Shown here piece after piece: positions 33-13,289 of a stretch of 13,373 nucleotides of DNA (its first letter is position 1; every line of letters begins with the position of its first letter). Location: the NCBI GenBank assembly GCA_027604665.1, contig JADGIZ010000455.1:1-13373 (forward strand). Reading direction: 5' to 3'. A program made the translations under genes and the position numbers. Below the pieces are notes generated by a model. That model was not told the origin of the DNA. It saw only the letters and a program-made list of their open reading frames with translations, and did not search any database. The stretch comes from Polyrhizophydium stewartii (taxonomy: Eukaryota > Chytridiomycota > Chytridiomycetes > Rhizophydiales).

Positions 33-3000
33 ATGCACCCTGCCGCGCGTCCTCCGCGACGCTGGCTCGCCCACCGCGCGCCACGCCGGCTGCGCTTCGT
101 CGGCCGTGGCAGCCTGCTCCACTCCAAGGGGTTCAGCCTCGCCCGCGCCGACGTCCATATTGACCCGGAGCAGCTCAAGAACGACGGCGTCTGCGCCATC
201 CACCGAGCCGACTGGAACGGCGAGCACGTTGCGGTCCAGATCCTGCTCGAGAACCACGACCCAACGCACGTTGCCCTCATCGAGACGCAGGCGGAAAAGT
301 GGTTCGGCGTCAATCACCAGAACGTCCTGCGCCTCGGCGGCATCTGCATCGAGCCCGGCGAGCACCCGTTTCTCGTCATGCAGTTTCTCAAAGAGCACAA
401 CCTCGTGTCCTATCTCGAGGAGCACCCAGAGACCGATATGCAAACGCTCTTCACCATTCTTCTGCGCGTTGCCCTTGGCGTTCAGTACCTGCACTACCGC
501 GCACCGGGCTGCCCCATCATCCACCGAGACCTCGAGTCCAAGCACGTTCTGCTCAACGAAAACGCGCGTACCGTCAAGGTCGGCTTTGGCATGGACCTGC
601 TCGAGCTGTTGTCAGCTCGCGTCGTGCGCCGCTCTCGATGGCTACCGCCAGAGTCTGCGCTGCCAAACTATGTCCCGGCCACACCCCTGGACGTTTACGC
701 CTTTGGCATGATTGCGATCGAGGCCATCACGCGCACGACGCCGTCGCCGGACCCCGTGCAAATCCGCCAGCCCGCCAACGTGCCCTCCAGCGTCTGGTTC
801 CTGCTGATGCGCTGCATCAGCCCGAATCCAGCGTCGCGGCCAACCTTTCACGAAATCGTCAATGTGTTCTCGGAGGCTGCGCCGGTGCAGACCAGTGCGT
901 GCCGACCACAAGCCTTGCGTAGCTCGTTGCGTTTCGCTGACTCGCCCTTGATCTGCCATGCGTGTTTGTAGCATCTGCGGAAGCAGCATCGAGAGAGTCG
1001 GCAACCGACCTCGACATCATTGTCGCCGCGTTCCCGCTATGGGTGCAACTGGTCGACCTCGCGCAGAACGCGTATCTCCCGGCAGGCGGCATGATGGACG
1101 TGATCGATCAAACGACCTCCCAGCTTGTGCAGCACCCTCGCCTTGTCTGGGACCGCGACCACCGGCTCACTTCCCTGTGCGTGCAAAACACGGCCTGGCT
1201 GTCGAGCGAGGAAACAATCTGCTCACACAATTCGCCCTTTGTCCCCGTGTTGTCGCAGTCGTCTCGGCCAGCTTGGTCTGTCTGGCCCGATCCCCAAAGA
1301 CGTTGGCCGCCTGACACACATCGAGGAGCTGTGCGTTCTTCTCATATCGATTCTCTTGACTGCGCAGCTCGCTGTAACACGACGACTTCACTCTGTACAG
1401 ATGGCTGCATCACAATGACTTTTTCGGCGAGCTGCCCTCGGAGCTCGGCAACTTGACCAGGCTGCAGTCGCTGTGAGTTGCCGTCGCTGCATCTGCTGCT
1501 TCATTTCGATCGCGGTCGGTGCTCACGCAAGCTCGGCACGGCAGAATCATCAATCACAATCGGCTTTCGGGTCGCATCCCGAATCGCATCTTCCAACACA
1601 TGCGTGACCTCTCGGTCCTGTAAGTTAATCAGCAACATCCATGATTCTCCAAAACCGCACGTGCGCTGACGGCGACCGTCGCACAGCAACTTGAGCGTGA
1701 ATCGCTTTGAAGGCGCCATACCAAGCAGTCTATTCTCCCTTCGGCAACTGCGTGCCTTGTGAGTGCCACGAGAAGATGTGGGTTTCAGCCTCTTGAACCT
1801 GACGCTCGAGCCTCTGTTTGCCAGCGATCTGTCATCCAACTTGTTTGTTGGCGAGATTTCCGACGAAATCAGCCAACTGGAGAACCTCGAGATCATGTGA
1901 GTGCCACAATTTTCGCATGCTGATGTGCACGGATTCCTGTTGTGCTGAATCTACGGGTGCCAAGCATGCTCTCGTACAATCAAATCGAGTCTCTGCCTGC
2001 GGAAATCGGGGCGCTTCAGAAGCTGATGCACATGTGCGCATACAAGGTTGCGAAACCCGTGTGCGATGGAAGCTGACTGCATGCGTGGGACAGATGGATC
2101 GACAACAACTGCATCTCACAAATCCCGCCAGAGATCGGAAAGTGCTCCCAGCTCGAGCGCATGTGAGCGGCGATGTGCTTATTGCTGCTCATTACTGAGC
2201 CGCGAAAGCTGACAGAACCGCTTTCCAGCAATCTCAGCTCGAACCCAATTGCAAGGATTCCACGCGAGATTGGCCGTCTGGCCTCCCTGAAGCTGCTGTG
2301 AGTTGGCAGCCTTGCACTGCTCTCATCCGAACGGCGACTCTGACCGCCGCATCAGCATGCTTGCCAACTGCCAGATCACCGAAATCCCGAGCGAGATTGG
2401 CCGCCTGGAGCTCGTTGAGTTCCTGTGAGCCTTTTGCGCCGCAAAACAGTCCAAGCACGATACGACGCTGACTTTTGCATGATTCGAAGGGATCTGAGCA
2501 ACAACAGAATCCGCGTGCTTCCAAAGCAGATTGGAAAGATCAAGAAGCTCAAAACTCTGTGAGCACAGCACTCGATGTCGTGGCTTAAAGTTTCCGCTTC
2601 ATTCTAACCAAGCGGGGACATGCAGAGCAATCAGTAACAACAAAATCAAGATCATCCCACGCGAGGTTGGAGAGCTCACCGAGCTCACGACGCTGTGCGT
2701 ACTCTTCTGTGCAGCGGTAATCGCATGTGGCCCAACCGCTGGTGCTGACCAAACTGCTCTGCAGTGCCCTTACCAACAACCGAGTCAAGGCGATCCCGCC
2801 CGAGATCGGCAACCTCAAGGCGCTGCTTGGACTGTCCGTTTCGTGTGCTTCTCTGAGCCTTTGGTTCCGCCCAGTCTGTTGACCCTGGCTTGTGACTGGC
2901 AGATCGCTTGCGTCCAACCGCATTTCGCACATTCCTCCGCAAATCGGCGCACTCGACAGCCTGACGATCCTGTGCGGCAATTTTGCTGGATTGAGCGCAC

Positions 3001-5825
3001 GTACTTGTGTCCGCATCTGACGCACTCGCCGCAACAGCGAACTCGAGCAAAATCAGATCACGACAATCCCGCGTGAAATCGGGAACCTTCGGTGTCTGCA
3101 GCAGCTGTGGGTTGCTTGAACTGACCTTTGCCGAGCCAAGGCATCTAAACTGATCCGTGGTCTGCGCAGCGTGCTGTCATCCAACCGCATCACCGAGATC
3201 CCGCCCGAGATCGGTGCCCTCTCCAACCTCACGACGCTGTAAGCCTGTTTCCTGTGCTCGCTTTGTCTGTCGCGCGCACTGCGCCTTGCTGACTCGGCTT
3301 CCTGCCAAACAGGGATCTCTGCAACAACTTGATAGCGTCGATCCCAACGGAAATCGGAAATCTTTCGCTTCTTGCTTATCTGTGCGTTGCAGTGCTGCAA
3401 GAACATCAGATGGAAGCTCGAATCTTGACTGACGCTGCCGCCGATTGACGTGTCGATCCAGGCTACTTGAAAAGAACAGGCTCACGGAACTGCCTGAACA
3501 GATCGGGAATCTGCTGCACTTGAACAAGATGTCAGTCGGCGTTTGTCGTTGGTGTGCCTCTCAGCACGCTCCAGACTGACTGTCGGCTGGTGCAGATGTC
3601 TGGGCGGAAACCGCCTGTCCTCGATCCCCGACGCGATTTGCCAACTGGTTCAGCTCGAATATCTGTATGCCTTTGCGTGCATGACATGCTCGCCGAGTGC
3701 GTTTGATCAGAGCTGACGCGTGCCCATCGGCGGCCTTTGAACAGCATGGTGCAACGCAACTATCTGACTGAGCTGCCCGAGAGCCTGGGCAACTTGCAGC
3801 GGCTCAAAACGCTGTGGGTGTCGTCTGTGTCGCCCAAGCGCATCTGCTGGATCCAGTGCGGCTGACGTCGATCGTACACCCCAGCCACATCAGCGACAAC
3901 CGCATCCAGCGTATTCCTGAAAGCGTCCTCAACTTGCGGAACCTGACCATCCTGTGCGTCGAGTGCGGCGAACCAGTGCCCGCCAATCTTCAGCCTCGCT
4001 TGCTGACGCTCACCCGCCAGCTGGATCGGCAACAACCGGCTGTCCGTGACGCCCAAGCTGCCAGCTAATTTCAGCAGCCTCTACGCACTGTAAGTCGTCG
4101 GCCACGCCGCTCGCCGACGCGAAAGAAAGGCACGACTGACGATGATGCAGGTCGATTGGCCATAATCCAATCTCGAGCCCGCCCTCTGGCTTCGCGCATC
4201 TAAACCAGCTCACGGTGCTGTAAGCCGACTCGCTTCTTGGCAGCTCGTGCGTGAAGGCCGGTTGCTGATGCAATTGTGACGGCAGCGACTTTGACTTTGT
4301 GCGCTGGAGTGTGTTTCCCCGAGAGATCTTTGACCTCACTCAACTCTCGATTCTGTGCGTTGCTGCGGCTTGTCGCGAGGATGGCAGCAAAACGTGCTCT
4401 GCTGACATGTGCACATCAGATTCCTTGGCTTCGGAGGTCTCACGGAGCTGCCGCCCGAGATTGGCCGGCTGCGCCACCTGACAAAGCTGTGCGTCTTGTG
4501 TTTGATGCGCTTGACGCAGAGTCCGGACTGACCGCGGGGCATGATCGGCTGTAGTAACCTCAAGGGCAACGAGCTTACTGTCCTTCCTGCGGAGATTGGC
4601 GAGCTCAAGCAGCTTGTCAAGCTGTGCGTCTTGCGGCCGGGCGGCCTTGGAAACGGGTACTTGGGCGAAACGATGCTGACATGTGCCGCGCACCGCAGGC
4701 GCTTGAACGAGAATAAGCTCGTGGCCCTGCCGCCCGAGATTGGCTCGCTCCCCTTGCTTTCCAAGCTGTGCGCCAGCAGTCGCGTGTGTGTGTGCGCTAA
4801 CGACACAAGCAAGCTGACCCTCGTGCTCGCGCAGGTGGCTGAGCAGCAACGAGCTCACGTCGCTGCCTCCTCAGATATCCAACTTGATCAGCCTGACCCA
4901 TCTGTGAGTGACTGACGACCCCGCTGTCGAGAAAGCATCTGCTGACGCGCTGCTGGAAAGTTCGCTCGACAACAACCAGCTGATGTGGATCCCCAGCGAG
5001 CTCGGCAACTTGATCCACCTCAAAGAGCTGTGAGCCATGTTTGCATCCGGCTGCGCCGAGGACAGAGAGTCGGAGGATGCTGACTCGCTGCGGTCATAGC
5101 ACATTCAACAACAACCCCATCTCGGAGATCCCCGCTGAGCTTGGCGAGCTGCCTGAGCTCGAGTGCCTGTGCGTGCATCGCGTGCTCTTCGTCGGCGCAC
5201 TCAACGAGCTGGCGATGCTGTGCGTCTGACACACGTTTTTGTGACGGACTGCAGGCAACTCGACTGGGAGTCGGTCGACCGCATCCCGCCCAAGTTGCGC
5301 CACTTTCTGTTCGACAGCCGCAGCCTGAGCCCGGACAGCGACGTGGGCGATCTGATTCCGCCGAGCGATATGGATGGCGTGCATTTGTTGCATCCTCTGG
5401 ACATGGGCGGCTTTGACAGCCGCAGCAGCAGCAGCATCCACACGAGCGACACGAACGACCAGGCGAGCGACGGTGCCGACAGCGGCAGCGGCTCGGGCAC
5501 CGGCTCGGGCTCGGGGTCCGGCACCGGCTCGGGTTCTGGCTCGGGTGCGGGCTCTGGATCGGGCTCCGGCTCCGGCTCTGGCAGCGGCACCGGCTATGGA
5601 TCCTGCAGCGGTACCGGGTACGGATCCGGCAGCGGTACAGGCTACGGATTGGGAAGCGGATCTGGGTCCGCCATCCACCACACAGCGGGCAGCGGCAACG
5701 GCAGTGGCAACGGCAGCGACGATATGGCGCTCGACGACCAGTGCAGCAACTTTGACAACGGCACGGTCGACATGAGCGTCGCCAGCTACGAGAAGGACAA
5801 CGAGATGAGCAGCGACTCCAACTGA
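33..5825 (+). CDS. TKL-type pseudokinase fused to a 29-repeat LRR solenoid with a Gly/Ser-rich tail (32 exons)
   Basis: Spliced model of 3657 nt (1218 aa). Exons: 33-894, 972-1176, 1259-1330, 1401-1472, 1545-1619, 1687-1758, 1825-1896, 1965-2033, 2094-2162, 2229-2297, 2356-2424, 2490-2558, 2626-2694, 2765-2833, 2903-2971, 3038-3106, 3170-3238, 3313-3381, 3462-3530, 3596-3664, 3745-3813, 3885-3953, 4021-4089, 4151-4219, 4286-4354, 4420-4488, 4555-4623, 4699-4767, 4835-4903, 4961-5029, 5100-5168, 5255-5825. Domains: pseudokinase about aa 45-282, cap 288-355, LRRs 356-1029, Gly/Ser tract about 1105-1167, acidic end. No transmembrane segment or signal peptide is visible, so it is probably cytosolic; a scaffold or sensor role is inference. 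The frame stays open through all 32 exons, which argues against a pseudogene. The start is uncertain: an in-frame stop lies at 27-29, but residues 1-27 are Arg/Pro-rich and may be untranslated or intronic (possible acceptor CAG at 110-112), so the true 5' end may lie outside the window. Confidence 0.82.
165..878 (+). other. Pseudokinase domain within the LRR gene, encoded in one uninterrupted exon
   Basis: The protein kinase fold is clear. There is an HRD loop (H164, R165, D166), a TKL-like RWLPPE in place of the usual APE region (W203-E207), a DVYAFG motif (D220-G225) and an SRP arginine (R269). Several catalytic positions are changed. The VAxK lysine is Gln69. The catalytic-loop K and N of HRDLKxxN are Glu168 and His171. 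DFG reads GFG (G184-G186). No GxGxxG loop is present before Gln69. Loss of both the ATP-anchoring lysine and the metal-binding DFG aspartate predicts a domain without normal phosphotransfer. It could still bind nucleotide or act as an allosteric platform. The domain type is seen directly; inactivity follows from kinase-family knowledge. Confidence 0.85.
972..1176 (+). other. Cap region between pseudokinase and first LRR (exon 2)
   Basis: Exon 2 encodes 68 residues (aa 288-355) that link the kinase domain to the repeats. The segment ends in RLTSL, which leads directly into the first LRR. Its arrangement (an acidic start, a hydrophobic AAFPLW segment, then a short strand) recalls the N-terminal caps of GxIP-type LRR proteins, but the usual cap cysteines are absent. 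It is preceded by the only phase-1 intron of the gene (895-971), whereas every later intron is phase 2. An alternative reading makes ATG 962 the start of a separate LRR gene. The good donor, branch and acceptor of intron 895-971 make the fused model more likely. Confidence 0.6.
1259..1896 (+). repeat. LRR exons 1-5 of the array, 24/25-residue GxIP type
   Basis: Five exons (1259-1330, 1401-1472, 1545-1619, 1687-1758, 1825-1896) are 72, 72, 75, 72 and 72 nt long, and each encodes one leucine-rich repeat. The first four carry the longer form with an extra residue before IP or LP (LSGPIP, FFGELP, LSGRIP, FEGAIP). The fifth has FVGEIS. This is the GxIP (plant-type) LRR class. Each exon begins with one base that completes a codon and ends with the first two bases of a Leu codon (Phe at the end of 1758; Ile at 1896). 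The separating introns are 66-73 nt. Confidence 0.85.
1965..5168 (+). repeat. 24 consecutive LRR exons of exactly 69 nt, one 23-residue repeat each
   Basis: Exons 8-31 are each 69 nt long and each encodes one 23-residue LRR of the form LxxNxIxxIPxEIGxLxxLxxL. Examples are N-Q-I-E-S-L-P-A-E-I-G at 1965-2033 and N-R-I-T-E-I-P-P-E-I-G at 3170-3238. The flanking introns (57-86 nt) are GT-AG and phase 2, and fall at the same repeat position. The repeat-plus-intron unit averages about 134 nt. The repeats at 4151-4219 and 4286-4354 are the most divergent: the first has PPSGF where IPxEIG is usual, and the second lacks the Asn of LxxN. This 23-residue class resembles intracellular SHOC2-like LRRs rather than the GxIP repeats upstream. 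Confidence 0.9.
5481..5721 (+). repeat. Gly-Ser/Thr-Gly coding minisatellite
   Basis: Degenerate hexamer repeats (ggctcg, ggcagc, ggcacc variants) encode alternating Gly-Ser, Gly-Thr and Gly-Tyr at about aa 1105-1167 of the LRR protein, with a shorter Gly-Ser/Asn patch at 5686-5721. The reading frame is kept to the stop at 5823-5825, and an Asp/Ser-rich end follows. A tract of this kind is expected to be a flexible, disordered tail and to vary in length between strains. Long readings in other frames here are shadows of the repeat composition. Confidence 0.85.
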
Positions 5826-6116: not shown

Positions 6117-9100
6117 CTATGTATGAGCGTCGTCGAGAGCCCATAGGCACGGCAGGCTTGGGTCGGACACGCTCGTGCCGTTTGCTGTGCAGCGCGACTG
6201 AATCCCGTCGTCGAGCCAGTTGAAGTACATGGCCCACACCACATGGCGCTCAAAGTCGTCGAGGCGGCGCGATACGGCAAGCACGTCCTCGCGTGCCTCG
6301 CGCACCGATGCGTGCCAGCTCGTCAGCGTGGCGTGAGATGCCGCGAGCTCGGGATCAGAGAATGTGCGCGAGAGACGCTCGCCTGGCGCAAGCTGCAGCA
6401 CGGCGGGGAGAGCCGCCGTGCTGTCGCCGACAGTGATGCCAAACGCAAGATCGAGAAACTCGCGCATGCGCGGCGAGAAACCTGGGGTCGTGGTGGAGTG
6501 CAGCTCGGTGCTCCAGTCGATTGCTGAAGCGGTTGTTGCCCCCAGAGGTGCTTGGCTTGCGCATGCTGGCGGAATTAGCGCGCTCGCGCCGCGGGATGCA
6601 GGTTGCGTCGATCCTCGCCAAACCAGTATGCTCAAGTTCAACAGAAGCGAGATGACTCCTACAACGACGACTGCGTATGCCACGAGCGGACTCAGCACAA
6701 TGCCGCCCGAGTTGTTGCTCTGTTGTGAGGCAGCTGCCGAGTCTTGACCTGGCGCCGCAGCAGATGCTGTTGCTGTCGCACTTGCTCCTGCTTGCTCCAA
6801 AGCACCAGACGTAGCCGCCTTTCCGCCGGAGATCTCGGCCTGCAGGATGGACACAATGTCTGCGCATGTTTCGGCAAGGCCCTTGAGCCCCGCCGATTTG
6901 ATCACGCCTGTAACACAGATCTCGGTTCAGCATCCGAAGCCGACGCTGTTACGAGCCGGCCTTGGACGTACTCTTCATCATCGTGCTCTTGCAAAAGTTG
7001 ATCCCGATTGACAGGGCTAAGCGGCACGTGTCCTCTGTCACCCAGGTGATGCAGTAGCGCATCATTGGGTTGAAGCAGTCGCCAAACGGCAGCTGCGGAG
7101 TAGATGTCTTGGCTTCGACAATATACATGCTGAAGGAGCTTGTCAGTCAGTGTGGATGGGTCAAGAGGCCAGAGGACGGCGGCGCGACTGACATCCATTC
7201 TGTCTTCTTGATCAGCGTCTGCGCTTCCTTGACGTCGGCCTCCTTGACCTTGACCATTGGGTTGTTCATCGCCAGCGTGTACGAAATCTCGCGGCTGGGC
7301 TCAGCGAACTCGTTCCAGACGCCTTCTTGTCGTTCTGAGCCAAGGAGTGTCAGCAATCAGCTCCATGTAGGCATTTTTGATGAACAGAAGCAGCCAAAGC
7401 TCACTCGATCCGCCGCGGCGCTTGTCTAGCTGCTCCCACACACGCGCTGATTTGTCGCCAAAGAGCAGGTCAAAGATCTTTTTTGCCGGCGCATTGAGCA
7501 CCACATCGACCTCTTTCTTTTCAAGGTGCTCTTTGCATCCACACTGCACCTCGGCTGTCGGAAGCGTCACAGAGTCGGGCGGTTTGTACTCGCCTGTTTT
7601 GCCCGCGCCGCCACTGCTGCGGTCATGACGGTGAAGCGTCAGTTGTGCGGACAGCAAAACCACAGCGCGATTTGGGGAGCATGCGCACCTGGAGTCGCCG
7701 AGTGCCGTGTTGGAGGCAGCTTCGCCCACCCCATCGCCCTCTTCACCCGACCTGCGAGCAACCGAGATGCCGTCCTTGTCGGTTCCGCCCTTTGCGACCG
7801 CCACGGACTGGTTATGCAGCTCCTGCGCAGACACTGGTGTTGCAGACTGCGCATTGTTCCACGCCCGTGTGAGCGGCGTGTGCACGCGGTCGGGCTTGCC
7901 GTACATCTTGAATATATGCTGGCGTGCGATGGGTGTGAGCACGCGAAGCTGAAACGCAATCTCATCATCATTAGCCCACCGTGGCTTCGGCCGTCGCGAT
8001 TTGGATGTTGCCATGCAGCGACCCGTTCTTCTTGACGATCGACGTGACTTCCTTGAAGCGGATTGAGAGCTGCAGAACAGATCAACATCCAGCAGATCGA
8101 CAAGCGCCAGAATGACCCAATTCGCCCTTACGAGCGTCACAAAGCCAAAGATGTTGGCATAGAAGCATACTCTGTGCGGCGTGATGTACATGCGGCCCTG
8201 GATCACAATGTCGCGCTGCAGCATGATCGAGCAGGCTGGCAAGTGTTGCAGACAGATCAGCGGGTGGGTTGGTGAGCGGGTGTCATCAGGTGGTGCGCAC
8301 CATCAGTCAGGAACTCTGTCGCAGGCACTGATTTGAAGTGTCGGTGCAACTCGACGTTCTTCTTTTCCATGGCTGGATCCGAGTACACGACCGGGCTGAC
8401 CAATGAAGCACGTGAGCATTTTTGTTAAGCAGGCAGATCCGGAAGCCAGACTCACTCTGGTTTGTCGCTCGCGGCTTCGACTATTGGAGGAGTCGGGCAC
8501 GCGCCGCTCACCAGCGACGACTGGCTGCGCTGGGTTGTGTCAACCTCCGACTCAGTTCCGGCCTCGGATCCCTCGACGTGGACGGCTCGTTGCGTGGTGG
8601 ACCGAGACTGGCGTCGGATCTTGATCTGATGCAGCGTCTCGCCGCCGTCGCTCTCATCCTCGCTGCTGGGCTCGAACGCGCCTTGGTCGATCATGTCCAG
8701 CACCGGCGTTGCGCTGGTCGCGAGGGCGTACTTGGCTGCCTCAAACGAGCTGATCCACGCACGCGCATCCTCATCGCTCTCGGCCTGCAGCAGAAACGAC
8801 TTTCTGCGAACGTCCAGAGTCACCAAGACCCGCGGGTGCGTTAGATCCGTCGTGTTTGATCGCAAGCTCGCACTAGCGTCCGGCATGCCTTGTCGACGTC
8901 TGCACCTCAAAGCAGAAGCGTCTTTCATCGGCCTTGGCGGGTCGAGCGTTGCACAGCAGCACGCTGATGGGCGTGGTGACCATGAGCTTGCCCCTGTGTC
9001 TGCCCGAGGTCGCCACGGTGGCATACGAGAAGCCGCCCTTGCGGATCATAAAGTACCGGCGCAGCCACGTGGACCCGGACACCGACTTGCGGAACAGATA

Positions 9101-10439: not shown

Positions 10440-13107
10440 ATGCCCCCGACGGACGGCGGCGGGCCGCTCTCCGAGGCGCGCATCGGCAAGCACGACGATC
10501 CGCTGCAAGCGGAAGAGACGGCGCCGCTGATAGAGGCTGCCCGGGCGGCAGCCGCTGACCTTGCCGAGCGGGCCTCTCGGTGGGCCGCATCGTCGCCCTG
10601 TGTCGAGCTCGCCGACATTGCCGCGGTCCTCAACGCTGCTCGGCGACGCCTCTGGGGCGGCGGACAGCCGCCTGCTGCAGTCGCTGCCCTTGGCGTGCGC
10701 ACTTCCCCAAGCGTCTGCGGCCGCACAACCTCGGGAGCCCCGGCTGCACATGGCTCCAAGTCGTGTGCCGTCGCGGCCGAGTGCAAGCTTCTGGGGAACA
10801 AGTCGCACGGCCACGGAGACGCCCAAGAGGCGCTGCGGGCTTGGACTTGGGGCATCCGCCATGCTCTCGCGCAGCCGCACGACTGCGAGCACGCGGGAGC
10901 TGCGGCAGCGCTCTTTGCGAACCGCGCGATGCTGCTGCTCGACGCCGGTCTTGTCGAGCACGCCTATCTCGACACCGAAAGAGCTTTGGCGGCTGGATAT
11001 CCGCGGTCGTCTGTGCACAAGCTTCTGCGTCGCCGTGCGCAGTGCGTTGCGCAGCTGGCATCGACGCCGAGGACGTCCCGCTCGGATATCCCTGGATCCC
11101 TTGGGTGGAACCCCGAGCGGGCGTATCTTGAGGCACTTGATGCAGCGTTGCGGAACAACGCAGTCGACTTTGTCAAGGCCATCGCCGACGACTTGAATGC
11201 GCTTGCCGCTGCGGGCTCTGCTGCCAAGACACCGCTTTCAAATCTGCCCGTCCAACCGCCGCCGATCGAGCCATTCGTCAGTCCTGAGATTGCAGTTGAG
11301 ATGCGCGATGGCGAGCGGTGCGTCGTGGCACTCAAGGACATTCCCGCGGGCACGACCATGTTGGTTGAGTCGCCTGTCGCCTGGGCCTTGGAGCCGACGC
11401 TGCGTGGCAGATACTGCGCCTACTGCACGCGGCACGCAGAAAGTATCGGCATATTGTGAGTTTGTTTTGTGCTGATGCGGGCTGTGTTGATTCTGATGCC
11501 TTATCGCATTCAACAGCTGTCCAGACTGCAGCCGCGACGAGCCGTATTGCTCTGAAGTGTGCCGCGCCAAGCATCTGCCTGTGCACGCACGCGAGTGCCG
11601 CTATCCGGTTTACGAGCGGCTGGACTCGGTGGCGGTGACGGCCTTGCGGCTGTTCTTTGCCTCGCAGGATGATCGGAAAGTGCCTGCCCTTCGGAAGGCG
11701 TGCGCATGGCCGCCGATTTCGAAGCGCATCCGAGCCAGCAGGGATGGGCTGAACATTGATGGTTTTAGTGACGATGGTGTTTATCAAGGTAATCAGCGCA
11801 TTTGATGAGTGAGGGACGGCGCTTGACAGCCAAGCTGACTGGCAGCCTCAGACGACACGCTCGCGATAGCGGCTTTGTGCAGCGGCGTCGCCAGGCAGGG
11901 TCGGGACGAAGTCTCGCATCTCATTTCCCTTGCGCTGTTGCTCGGTGCAACGGTTCCCGAGTTTGCGGACTCGGCAGCTCTGTCCCAACTGCTCATGTTG
12001 ATGCTGCAGACGAGGTGTGCCGCGCAATGTCCAAAGTGGGCTTGCTTGATTGTCTAATGCGGTGGATGACACCTCCACTCAGCGTCAACTGCGTCGGCGT
12101 CTCGCGACAAGAGACGGCTGGTGGCGAGGCGTCCGAAGCGATCGAGACGCACACGGAGGCGAGGCTTGGCAAAGCGATTTATGCAACCATGAGCCTGGTG
12201 AATCACAGCTGCGCGCCAAACGCGGCGCACCACTTTGAGGATTCGGCGCTGCGTCTGCGGACGATCGAGCATGTACGCCGAGGCGACCAGATCACGATAT
12301 CTTATGTGAGCAGCCAGACGGCGGCATGGACTGGAGCTTGCTGAGTTGCAGGAGAGCTGACTTGGCTCGCTTCAGGGACCGACGGCGGCAAGAATGGGGC
12401 GGGACGAGCGGCGCGCGCTGCTGTCCCGTGCGTGGGGATTCGAGTGCAGGTGCTCGGCGTGTTCCGGCGTCGAAGCCGATATGCGCGACCGCCTGCAAAA
12501 CGCATTCCGATGCAGCGGATGCCCATTCCCGCTGCGGGAGGACGAGACTCGGTGTCCGCGGTGCGGGCATGCGGTGGATACCGGGCGGCAGGACGCCCTC
12601 AGCGCCGTGTTCGAGCAGATGCTGCGACTGCGCGACGCCGCTGCTGGCGGCGGACGGCCGGCGCGGCAGGTGCTTGCTGCGCTGGATGACGTCGAGCGTC
12701 GCGTGGCGTCGATTGTGCACCCGCACGGGCGGAACGCGGGGCGGATCTACGACAAGCTTGCGATGGTGGCGGCGATGCTCGCGGAGCGCGAGGGCGACGC
12801 GACGGTGCTCGGCCGGGCGGCGGCGCTGGTGGAGCGGTCGCTCGAGTCTGTGCGAGCGGTGTTCGGGCCGCGCAGCGTCGAGTACGCGCACGAGCTGGAG
12901 AAGCTGCACAGCGTGCTTGTGCAGTTGAGTGCACGTGCCAGAGCGGATGCATGTGCGGATGCGAGTCTTGGCCGCGGGCTGACGCGCGGCGGCGGGGGGG
13001 GGTGCAGGACGGATGCGAGCCGGGCGGCGTCCGTGCGGCGTGAGGCGGACGCGCTGCTCGCGCTGCACTACGGCGGCGGCGGCGGCGGCGGCGGCAGCGG
13101 GGGATGA
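10440..13107 (+). CDS. SMYD4: SMYD4-like protein: TPR, split SET with MYND zinc finger, post-SET
   Basis: Exons 10440-11455, 11517-11788, 11852-12014, 12083-12305 and 12376-13107 give 801 aa, close to human SMYD4 (804). SMYD proteins are SAM-dependent lysine methyltransferases. TPR-like helices lie at about 113-208 (KLLGNKSHGHGDAQEALRAW). The SET N part starts near 283 (ERCVVALKDIPAGTTML). The MYND ligands are C326, C329, C340, C343, C350, C354, H362 and C366, split by the first intron. The SET core has NHSCAPN at 524-530 and ISY ending at Y558. The segment YGPTAARMGRDERR matches the SMYD4 post-SET lead-in, followed by C582, C584 and C587. Extra cysteines C604, C607, C618 and C621 suggest a further zinc ribbon. 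A C-terminal helical region ends in poly-Gly. The acceptor of exon 3 may instead give 11846 (+2 aa). No substrate can be assigned. Confidence 0.9.
12994..13002 (+). repeat. G9 homopolymer inside the last SMYD4-like exon
   Basis: Nine consecutive G bases fall in codons for Gly. A one-base slip here would change the last 36 or so residues and the stop. The frame as read continues through a helix-like segment (EADALLALHY) to TGA at 13105-13107, so the given length is plausible. Confidence 0.9.
13072..13095 (+). repeat. (GGC)8 trinucleotide repeat encoding poly-Gly
   Basis: Eight perfect GGC units encode eight Gly near the C-terminus of the SMYD4-like protein, followed by Ser-Gly-Gly and the stop. 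The repeat is likely to vary in length without loss of frame. Confidence 0.95.
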
Positions 13108-13289
13108 CGGCGGTCGGCGGCCGGCGCCCGCGTGACGGGCGGCGGCGGGCATTTCGGGGCTGCGGGTGCGGCCAAACGCCGCCGCGGCGAGATAAAAGAG
13201 GCGATCTCGCGTGCGCGGCCTTTGCTGCAGCCAACGCACCACCGCCCGCACCGCACCCGCCACCAGCAAGTCCGCATCCAACCGCAGCC
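13108..13289 (+). other. GC-rich intergenic region between SMYD4-like and SCPx-like genes
   Basis: This 182-nt spacer is strongly GC-rich apart from an A-rich element at 13191-13200. It must contain the 3' end of the upstream gene and the promoter of the downstream one. No polyadenylation motif or structured RNA is recognised. Confidence 0.5.
13192..13198 (+). promoter_or_regulatory. TATA-like element of the SCPx-like gene
   Basis: ATAAAAG stands out in a very GC-rich background, 91 nt before the ATG at 13290. Position and composition fit a TATA-type core promoter element with a leader of about 60 nt. No start-site evidence is available from sequence alone. Confidence 0.4.

Follow-up and report, generated by a model that had tools for sequence, protein, structure and literature searches.

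Genes in which each leucine-rich repeat (LRR) is a separate exon are known from several distant eukaryotes. In rice LRR-kinase genes, phase-2 introns split the first Leu of the xxLxLxx motif and short exons of 72 nt each encode one repeat, for which exon duplication and intron loss have been proposed (PMC3050792). Brown algal ROCO genes also carry one LRR per exon in phase 2, in 72-bp exons placed ahead of a ROC-COR GTPase; their exons are shuffled, and the proteins have been suggested to be immune receptors (PMC11378527). The LRR genes of Tetrahymena, thousands in number, are built of tandem 90-bp exons of equal length with an extreme phase-2 bias, introns near 257 bp (T. thermophila), and multi-exon intragenic repeat units; unequal crossing over was inferred for them, and fusion to other domains, such as protein kinase, is mentioned in only some instances (PMC6564038). 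Human NLR-family LRR exons are modular in a vertebrate NLR context (PMC6642158), and fungal NLRs are described as carrying repeats other than LRR (PMC9815663). Here we describe a gene of this kind from the chytrid Polyrhizophydium stewartii, in which a protein kinase-like domain is followed by 29 one-repeat LRR exons; it lies on a contig of 13,373 nt (JADGIZ010000455.1, C454 in our genome search), the whole of which is referred to below as the window.

The window gene shares with rice LRR-kinase genes the split Leu codon, the phase, and the single LRR per exon, but most of its exons are 69 nt and they form long unbroken runs. It resembles the brown algal genes in exon content and phase, although the window protein, whose gene lacks its 5′ end here, has no ROC-COR among its 10 Pfam matches, and it resembles the Tetrahymena genes in its tandem equal-length exons and phase bias, with exons of 69, 72, and 75 nt instead of 90 bp and with multi-exon repeat units in its family. 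Unlike the human proteins, the window protein has no NACHT or NB-ARC domain among its Pfam matches. The kind of gene is therefore already known, as the initial annotation had stated for one-repeat-per-exon LRR genes in general. To our knowledge, the novelty lies in the occurrence in chytrids, in the kinase-like part preceding the repeats, in unbroken runs of such length, and in one genome showing both growth and fusion; no description of phase-2 LRR modules in fungi was found among the literature matches listed, in a search that for the most part did not reach subscription journals.

Exon-intron structure of the window gene

Exon chaining by dynamic programming, with scores for donor, branch site, acceptor, and LRR residues, returned exactly 29 LRR exons between positions 1259 and 5168, 24 of them of 69 nt, the same set that had been proposed from inspection of the window. 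Their lengths in order are 72, 72, 75, 72, and 72 nt, followed by an unbroken 24 × 69 nt. The features of the gene are listed below; LRR exons are from the chaining search, and linker, C-terminal exon, and introns are from the gene model.

33-894, plus strand: exon with the protein kinase-like domain (model residues 61-278; PF07714, E 9.2e-26; PF00069, E 1.1e-16; VAVQ, HRDLESKH, and GFG motifs); the 5′ side of the gene is cut off here by the contig end
895-971, plus strand: intron 1, phase 1
972-1176, plus strand: linker exon ending in LTSL, the cap ahead of the first LRR
1177-1258, plus strand: first of 30 phase-2 introns, 82 nt
1259-1330, plus strand: LRR exon 1, 72 nt
1401-1472, plus strand: LRR exon 2, 72 nt
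1545-1619, plus strand: LRR exon 3, 75 nt
1687-1758, plus strand: LRR exon 4, 72 nt
1825-1896, plus strand: LRR exon 5, 72 nt
1965-2033, plus strand: LRR exon 6, first of 24 consecutive 69-nt exons
2094-2162, plus strand: LRR exon 7, 69 nt
2229-2297, plus strand: LRR exon 8, 69 nt
2356-2424, plus strand: LRR exon 9, 69 nt
2490-2558, plus strand: LRR exon 10, 69 nt
2626-2694, plus strand: LRR exon 11, 69 nt
2765-2833, plus strand: LRR exon 12, 69 nt
2903-2971, plus strand: LRR exon 13, 69 nt; its 3′ end and donor resemble the putative relic in the last intron
3038-3106, plus strand: LRR exon 14, 69 nt
3170-3238, plus strand: LRR exon 15, 69 nt
3313-3381, plus strand: LRR exon 16, 69 nt
3462-3530, plus strand: LRR exon 17, 69 nt
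3596-3664, plus strand: LRR exon 18, 69 nt
3745-3813, plus strand: LRR exon 19, 69 nt
3885-3953, plus strand: LRR exon 20, 69 nt
4021-4089, plus strand: LRR exon 21, 69 nt
4151-4219, plus strand: LRR exon 22, 69 nt
4286-4354, plus strand: LRR exon 23, 69 nt
4420-4488, plus strand: LRR exon 24, 69 nt
4555-4623, plus strand: LRR exon 25, 69 nt
4699-4767, plus strand: LRR exon 26, 69 nt
4835-4903, plus strand: LRR exon 27, 69 nt
4961-5029, plus strand: LRR exon 28, 69 nt
5100-5168, plus strand: LRR exon 29, 69 nt, last of the 24
5169-5254, plus strand: last phase-2 intron, 86 nt
5192-5224, plus strand: putative relic of an LRR exon 3′ end and donor within the last intron (27/33 nt identical to the end of LRR exon 13)
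5255-5825, plus strand: C-terminal exon, with a short cap, a Gly/Ser-rich tail, and the stop TGA at 5823-5825

With its flanking exons, the gene model comprises 32 exons and 31 introns of 57 to 86 nt (mean, 68.9). All 30 introns within 1177-5254 are phase 2 and all split the same repeat codon, just as the initial annotation had it; this codon is that of the first Leu (or its replacement) of xxLxLxx. The intron at 895-971 alone is phase 1. The uniform 69 nt follows because the repeats are uniformly 23 residues long and every intron falls at one codon. The two exon bases preceding the donors of the phase-2 introns are CT in 25/30, AT in 4/30, and TT in 1/30, and the donors themselves are GTGCGT (9), GTGAGT (5), GTGAGC (4), and others (12); a CTRAY branch-like motif occurs in 26/30, a figure that carries no chance control.

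Once spliced, the kinase exon and all that follow it form one open frame that ends at the stop at 5823-5825. Retention would introduce an in-frame stop for 23 of the 30 phase-2 introns, and among the other 7 a single one (4624-4698) has a length divisible by three (75 nt); retention of the intron at 895-971 likewise gives an in-frame stop. A phase-2 GTRAG donor within 1177-5254 reads as a stop right after the split codon, such that retention means an immediate stop in 13/30 introns, while the frequent GTGCG donors give none. In 60 dinucleotide shuffles of positions 1101-5400 the longest chain had 6 exons and the longest 69-nt run was 1, and the reverse strand gave a chain of 2. Looser scoring added a 30th exon (54 nt), which we take as spurious.

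Probable array growth and fusion in the gene family

We searched the genome (12.86 Mb, 690 contigs) for related arrays; those beyond the window gene are models from the same chaining script, not annotations. A pattern for the end of an LRR exon plus its donor had 287 matches against 35 for a reversed control, and a second, overlapping pattern had 192 against 26. In the window gene the first pattern recovers only 12 of the 29 LRR exons, and by a rough estimate the genome thus probably contains several hundred exons of this type. The kinase and linker part has 86 matches, the window's own included. One-LRR-per-exon arrays were read on contigs C161, C57, C117, C135, and C409, with the kinase-like domain upstream in all but C117, where only the linker was seen, and single-LRR arrays with 72-nt exons on C75, C110, and C176. 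By the same model, the paralogue on C161 comprises 57 LRR exons, including 51 in a row of 69 nt each, and the run of 24 in the window gene, earlier called extreme, is accordingly not the longest in its own genome.

We consider it probable, taken as a whole, that the window locus belongs to a chytrid-type family, with a long LRR solenoid after the kinase-like domain, that grows by unequal recombination, loses introns, and encodes recognition or scaffold proteins. The repeated DNA unit would be a module of one LRR exon and one short phase-2 intron, cut in the first Leu of xxLxLxx, and unequal recombination between modules would copy or delete whole repeats in frame, often several modules together. 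The copies themselves are observed on C161, and recombination is what they suggest. There, a block of nine exon-intron units (∼1240 bp) is found three times in full and once in part; identities among the complete blocks are 87.7, 91.7, and 94.4%, with differences at 53/621, 39/621, and 18/621 exon positions and at 99/614, 64/614, and 51/619 intron positions. Exon identity averages 0.86 at lag 9 and 0.81 at lag 18, compared with 0.47 to 0.52 at other lags up to 21. Tandem Repeats Finder (longest period, 500) gave no entry for the window's LRR array or for C161:9000-18999, a silence that we attribute to the period limit together with the divergence of the copies.

The exon at C161:18669-18737 looks chimaeric. 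Its upstream intron (0.83 to 0.85 versus 0.66) and first twelve bases match the third module type, while the remainder of the exon (58/69 versus 43 to 44) and the downstream intron (0.84 and 0.77 versus 0.61) match the sixth, a pattern that a crossover inside the exon or at its edge, with loss of three modules, would give. Recombination borders therefore need not equal exon borders. The suggestion of growth by exon duplication is supported by C161 as to duplication, but the unit copied there is a nine-exon block with its introns and a crossover apparently fell inside an exon.

Judged from dN/dS values of 0.40, 0.37, and 0.80, the C161 copies are under constraint. Their amino acid replacements are enriched at five positions (23/135 versus 26/459; Fisher p 1.1e-4, over 27 exon pairs that are dependent), which we assign from the LRR consensus to the concave strand face. 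In a comparison of six arrays, the first few repeats beside the kinase-like part would tend to hold their position while the rest turn over: the best match of a repeat has the same index in 83/120 cases for the first four repeats and in 87/576 for later ones. This comparison used 56 of the 57 C161 exons (that before a GC donor was left out), left aside the cap exon that opens the arrays of C57, C117, C135, and C161 as well as the final exon chained on C57, and took from C409 only exons under 90 nt. Between C161 and C117, differences fall at codon positions 1, 2, and 3 in 27, 22, and 63 of 187 (8 of 9 exon pairs, those of equal length).

Runs of introns could also be lost, leaving multi-repeat exons of exact module multiples. 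On C176, a single stretch of 1872 nt (11365-13236) is exactly 26 × 72 nt and encodes 26 repeats with no stop; it has phase-2 splice sites at both ends and 72-nt single-LRR exons on either side, and the same contig has two exons of 144 nt. We set the borders by the splice sites on either side and by the uninterrupted frame, the chaining script having given spurious pieces here. Since the module phase is preserved at both borders, it is simplest to suppose that adjacent introns were lost, with fusion as the presumed direction of change. In Cryptococcus, recombination has been reported as a cause of internal intron loss (PMC2395259). In the C176 stretch, codons for the first Leu are CTC:CTG 12:3 and for the next Leu 4:10 (Fisher p 0.009), but we did not use this bias as a sign of intron loss, as the control gene on C464 leans the same way (5:3 versus 3:4).

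The window gene itself would be an older array whose duplicates have since diverged. Its 24 equal exons have a mean identity of 47% (only the 69-nt exons were compared), and in a lag analysis only lag 1 fell below p 0.05 (0.015; 20 lags tested). A possible trace of duplication lies in the last intron: the 27/33 match of positions 5192-5224 compares with a maximum of 24 among 406 pairs of true exon ends in the gene, and the sole match of the LRR-exon-end pattern in the window outside exon ends falls on it.

Several results weigh against this account. No lag in the window gene is significant after correction for the 20 tested, its best exon pair is only 65% identical, and duplication, if its exons arose in this way, would be old; the proposal of growth by exon duplication thus holds for the C161 paralogue and finds little in the window gene. 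The six arrays include close relatives (C161/C117 and C57/C135) that lift the overall same-index figure, and for the window gene alone it is weak, 10/20 for the first four repeats and 16/103 for later ones. Between C161 and C117, exon similarity exceeds intron similarity in only 7 of the first 9 units. The splice borders of the window gene are predictions from sequence, and for the oldest arrays introns could have been gained at a preferred codon.

Three side observations concern the wider set of arrays. At C161:14288-14356, a 69-nt LRR exon is followed by a GC-AG intron. The arrays on C75 and C110 make up another group of genes, marked by a cap that contains Cys, single-LRR exons of 72 nt, and a hydrophobic stretch, and possibly encode cell-surface LRR proteins. 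A kinase-LRR copy on C253 has few intact LRR exons in the model and looks degenerate. Non-LRR stretches in the chained models of C57, C75, and C110 were taken as spurious.

Alternative explanations of the module

The module might be kept for regulated exon skipping, giving many LRR isoforms per gene, which has been suggested for the ROCO genes of brown algae (PMC11378527) and shown for NLRP3 (PMC6642158). All 29 LRR exons are symmetric with one LRR each, and skipping any of them would, as arithmetic, keep the frame. This symmetry would follow from a history of duplication anyway, and we think skipping an unlikely reason for the structure.

An origin by intron gain is improbable in our view. 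Here an uninterrupted LRR array would have come first, and introns would have been inserted at the same codon, singly or as a mobile intron type. Uninterrupted LRRs do exist in the same genome (C464; C310, with four repeats in one frame; C575, whose first repeats lie in the kinase exon), as does the 26-repeat stretch of C176, and the window introns are somewhat more alike than shuffles on average (mean score, −1.8 versus −4.8; standard deviation, 3.7). That excess may, however, reflect common splice signals, and the introns include no near-copies (best pair 10 against a shuffle maximum of 5.5; the best C161 pair scores 68). All introns in the arrays read share one codon and phase, the exon flank CT|N differs from AG|G, the context usually given for intron insertion sites, and the exons and introns of C161 were copied together.

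We give still less weight to inheritance from a very old one-LRR-per-exon gene common to plants and other eukaryotes. It would account for the rice introns splitting the same Leu in phase 2. Plant LRR receptor-like kinases, however, have extracellular LRRs, then a membrane helix, then the kinase, and the window gene has the opposite order, with the kinase-like domain first; most of its exons are also 69-nt modules as against 72 nt. That the locus is a pseudogene or that its intervals are misread and not spliced exons is hardly credible: splicing here is predicted and the C253 paralogue looks degenerate, but a single frame stays open through 32 exons, splice signals recur, differences between C161 and C117 are in excess at third positions, and dN/dS is below 1 in the C161 copies.

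The predicted protein and the significance of the family

The window protein model has 1218 residues and runs from the kinase-like domain through the LRRs to a Gly/Ser-rich tail. The contig starts just ahead of the kinase-like domain, and the N terminus is absent from it. It is probably a pseudokinase because VAVQ and GFG replace the usual Lys and the DFG Asp, and the residues taken together as marks of an active TKL-type kinase (VAIK Lys, HRD Asp, DFG Asp) are thus not all present. As a point against this, the HRD Asp is kept, and the domain may yet be active. Paralogues on C310 and C575 retain all three catalytic residues (as VAVK, HGD, and DFG), and HGS or HSS replaces HRD on C161, C57, and C135. 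In the tail, window positions 5471-5720 are low-complexity Gly/Ser-rich sequence with periods of 6, 12, 18, and 24 nt.

Proteins of the chytrid Entophlyctis helioformis provide the top match and the three highest coverages (72 to 73%) among the 120 matches listed, in agreement with the earlier assignment to a fungal-type genome. Three of them (hypothetical proteins P0001, P0004, and P0005) are 30 to 33% identical to the window protein, and the N-terminal part of one Entophlyctis protein led to three hypothetical proteins of P. stewartii (P0121 to P0123). All six share with the window protein a kinase-like domain (partial in some) followed by LRRs, mostly of 23 or 24 residues, and similar first repeats; regular spacing is 23 in P0001 and P0121 and 24 in P0004 and P0005, by a motif that finds only part of the repeats. 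In P0121, a class C receptor-like part (PF00003, PF01094) is also attached to the LRR-kinase family sequence, possibly through a fusion of gene models.

These relatives have an N-terminal region before the kinase-like domain, which for the window gene is off the contig; pieces of it lie upstream of the kinase-like domain in the paralogues on C161, C57, and C135. The region looks helical. MLKL-like proteins carry a four-helix bundle at the N terminus, ahead of a pseudokinase. PF22215 (MLKL_N) matched P0122 and P0123 with 19.5 and 19.0 bits, under the curated cutoff of 27, and thus 2 of the 6 members of the N-terminal alignment; it was unreported for P0001, P0004, and P0005 at E up to 0.1 and for P0121 at E up to 0.01, and a PDB profile search with the region gave 6 matches (E 0.015 to 1.1), none of them MLKL. 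We treat the resemblance as a lead and not as a classification.

Domain order and motifs make a role in recognition or as a scaffold, at a presumed intracellular location, the likeliest for the protein; the LRR solenoid would bind a partner and the kinase-like, probably dead domain would transmit its state. A bolder possibility is all-in-one recognition, an MLKL-like helical bundle joined to a dead kinase and an LRR array that is rapidly remade by the copying and fusing of modules, which would give diversifying intracellular receptors and a possible trigger of cell death; this we hold to be speculative and rather doubtful.

Elsewhere in the window, an open reading frame (ORF) at 7301-8242 on the minus strand matches a GRAM domain (E 3.2e-7). 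A plus-strand gene region at 10440-13107 includes an ORF at 11802-12344 that contains NHSCAPN, which is reminiscent of SET-domain proteins; two other ORFs of this region had no Pfam match, and a homologue search with the ORF at 10440-11456 gave nothing at E up to 0.001.

The window gene and its relatives extend phase-2 LRR modules to a fungal lineage. One small genome shows array starts that tend to hold their place, duplicated nine-module blocks, an apparent chimaera, runs of 24 and 51 equal exons, and a 26-repeat stretch, and because these array states coexist it becomes testable whether introns in register drive the growth of repeat genes, follow from it as a by-product, or mark a passing state of it. 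If the family members are receptors, they would amount to a large unexplored recognition repertoire in early-diverging fungi, and if the MLKL-like bundle, dead kinase, and LRR array do act together, fungi would have a counterpart to the LRR receptors of plants and animals.

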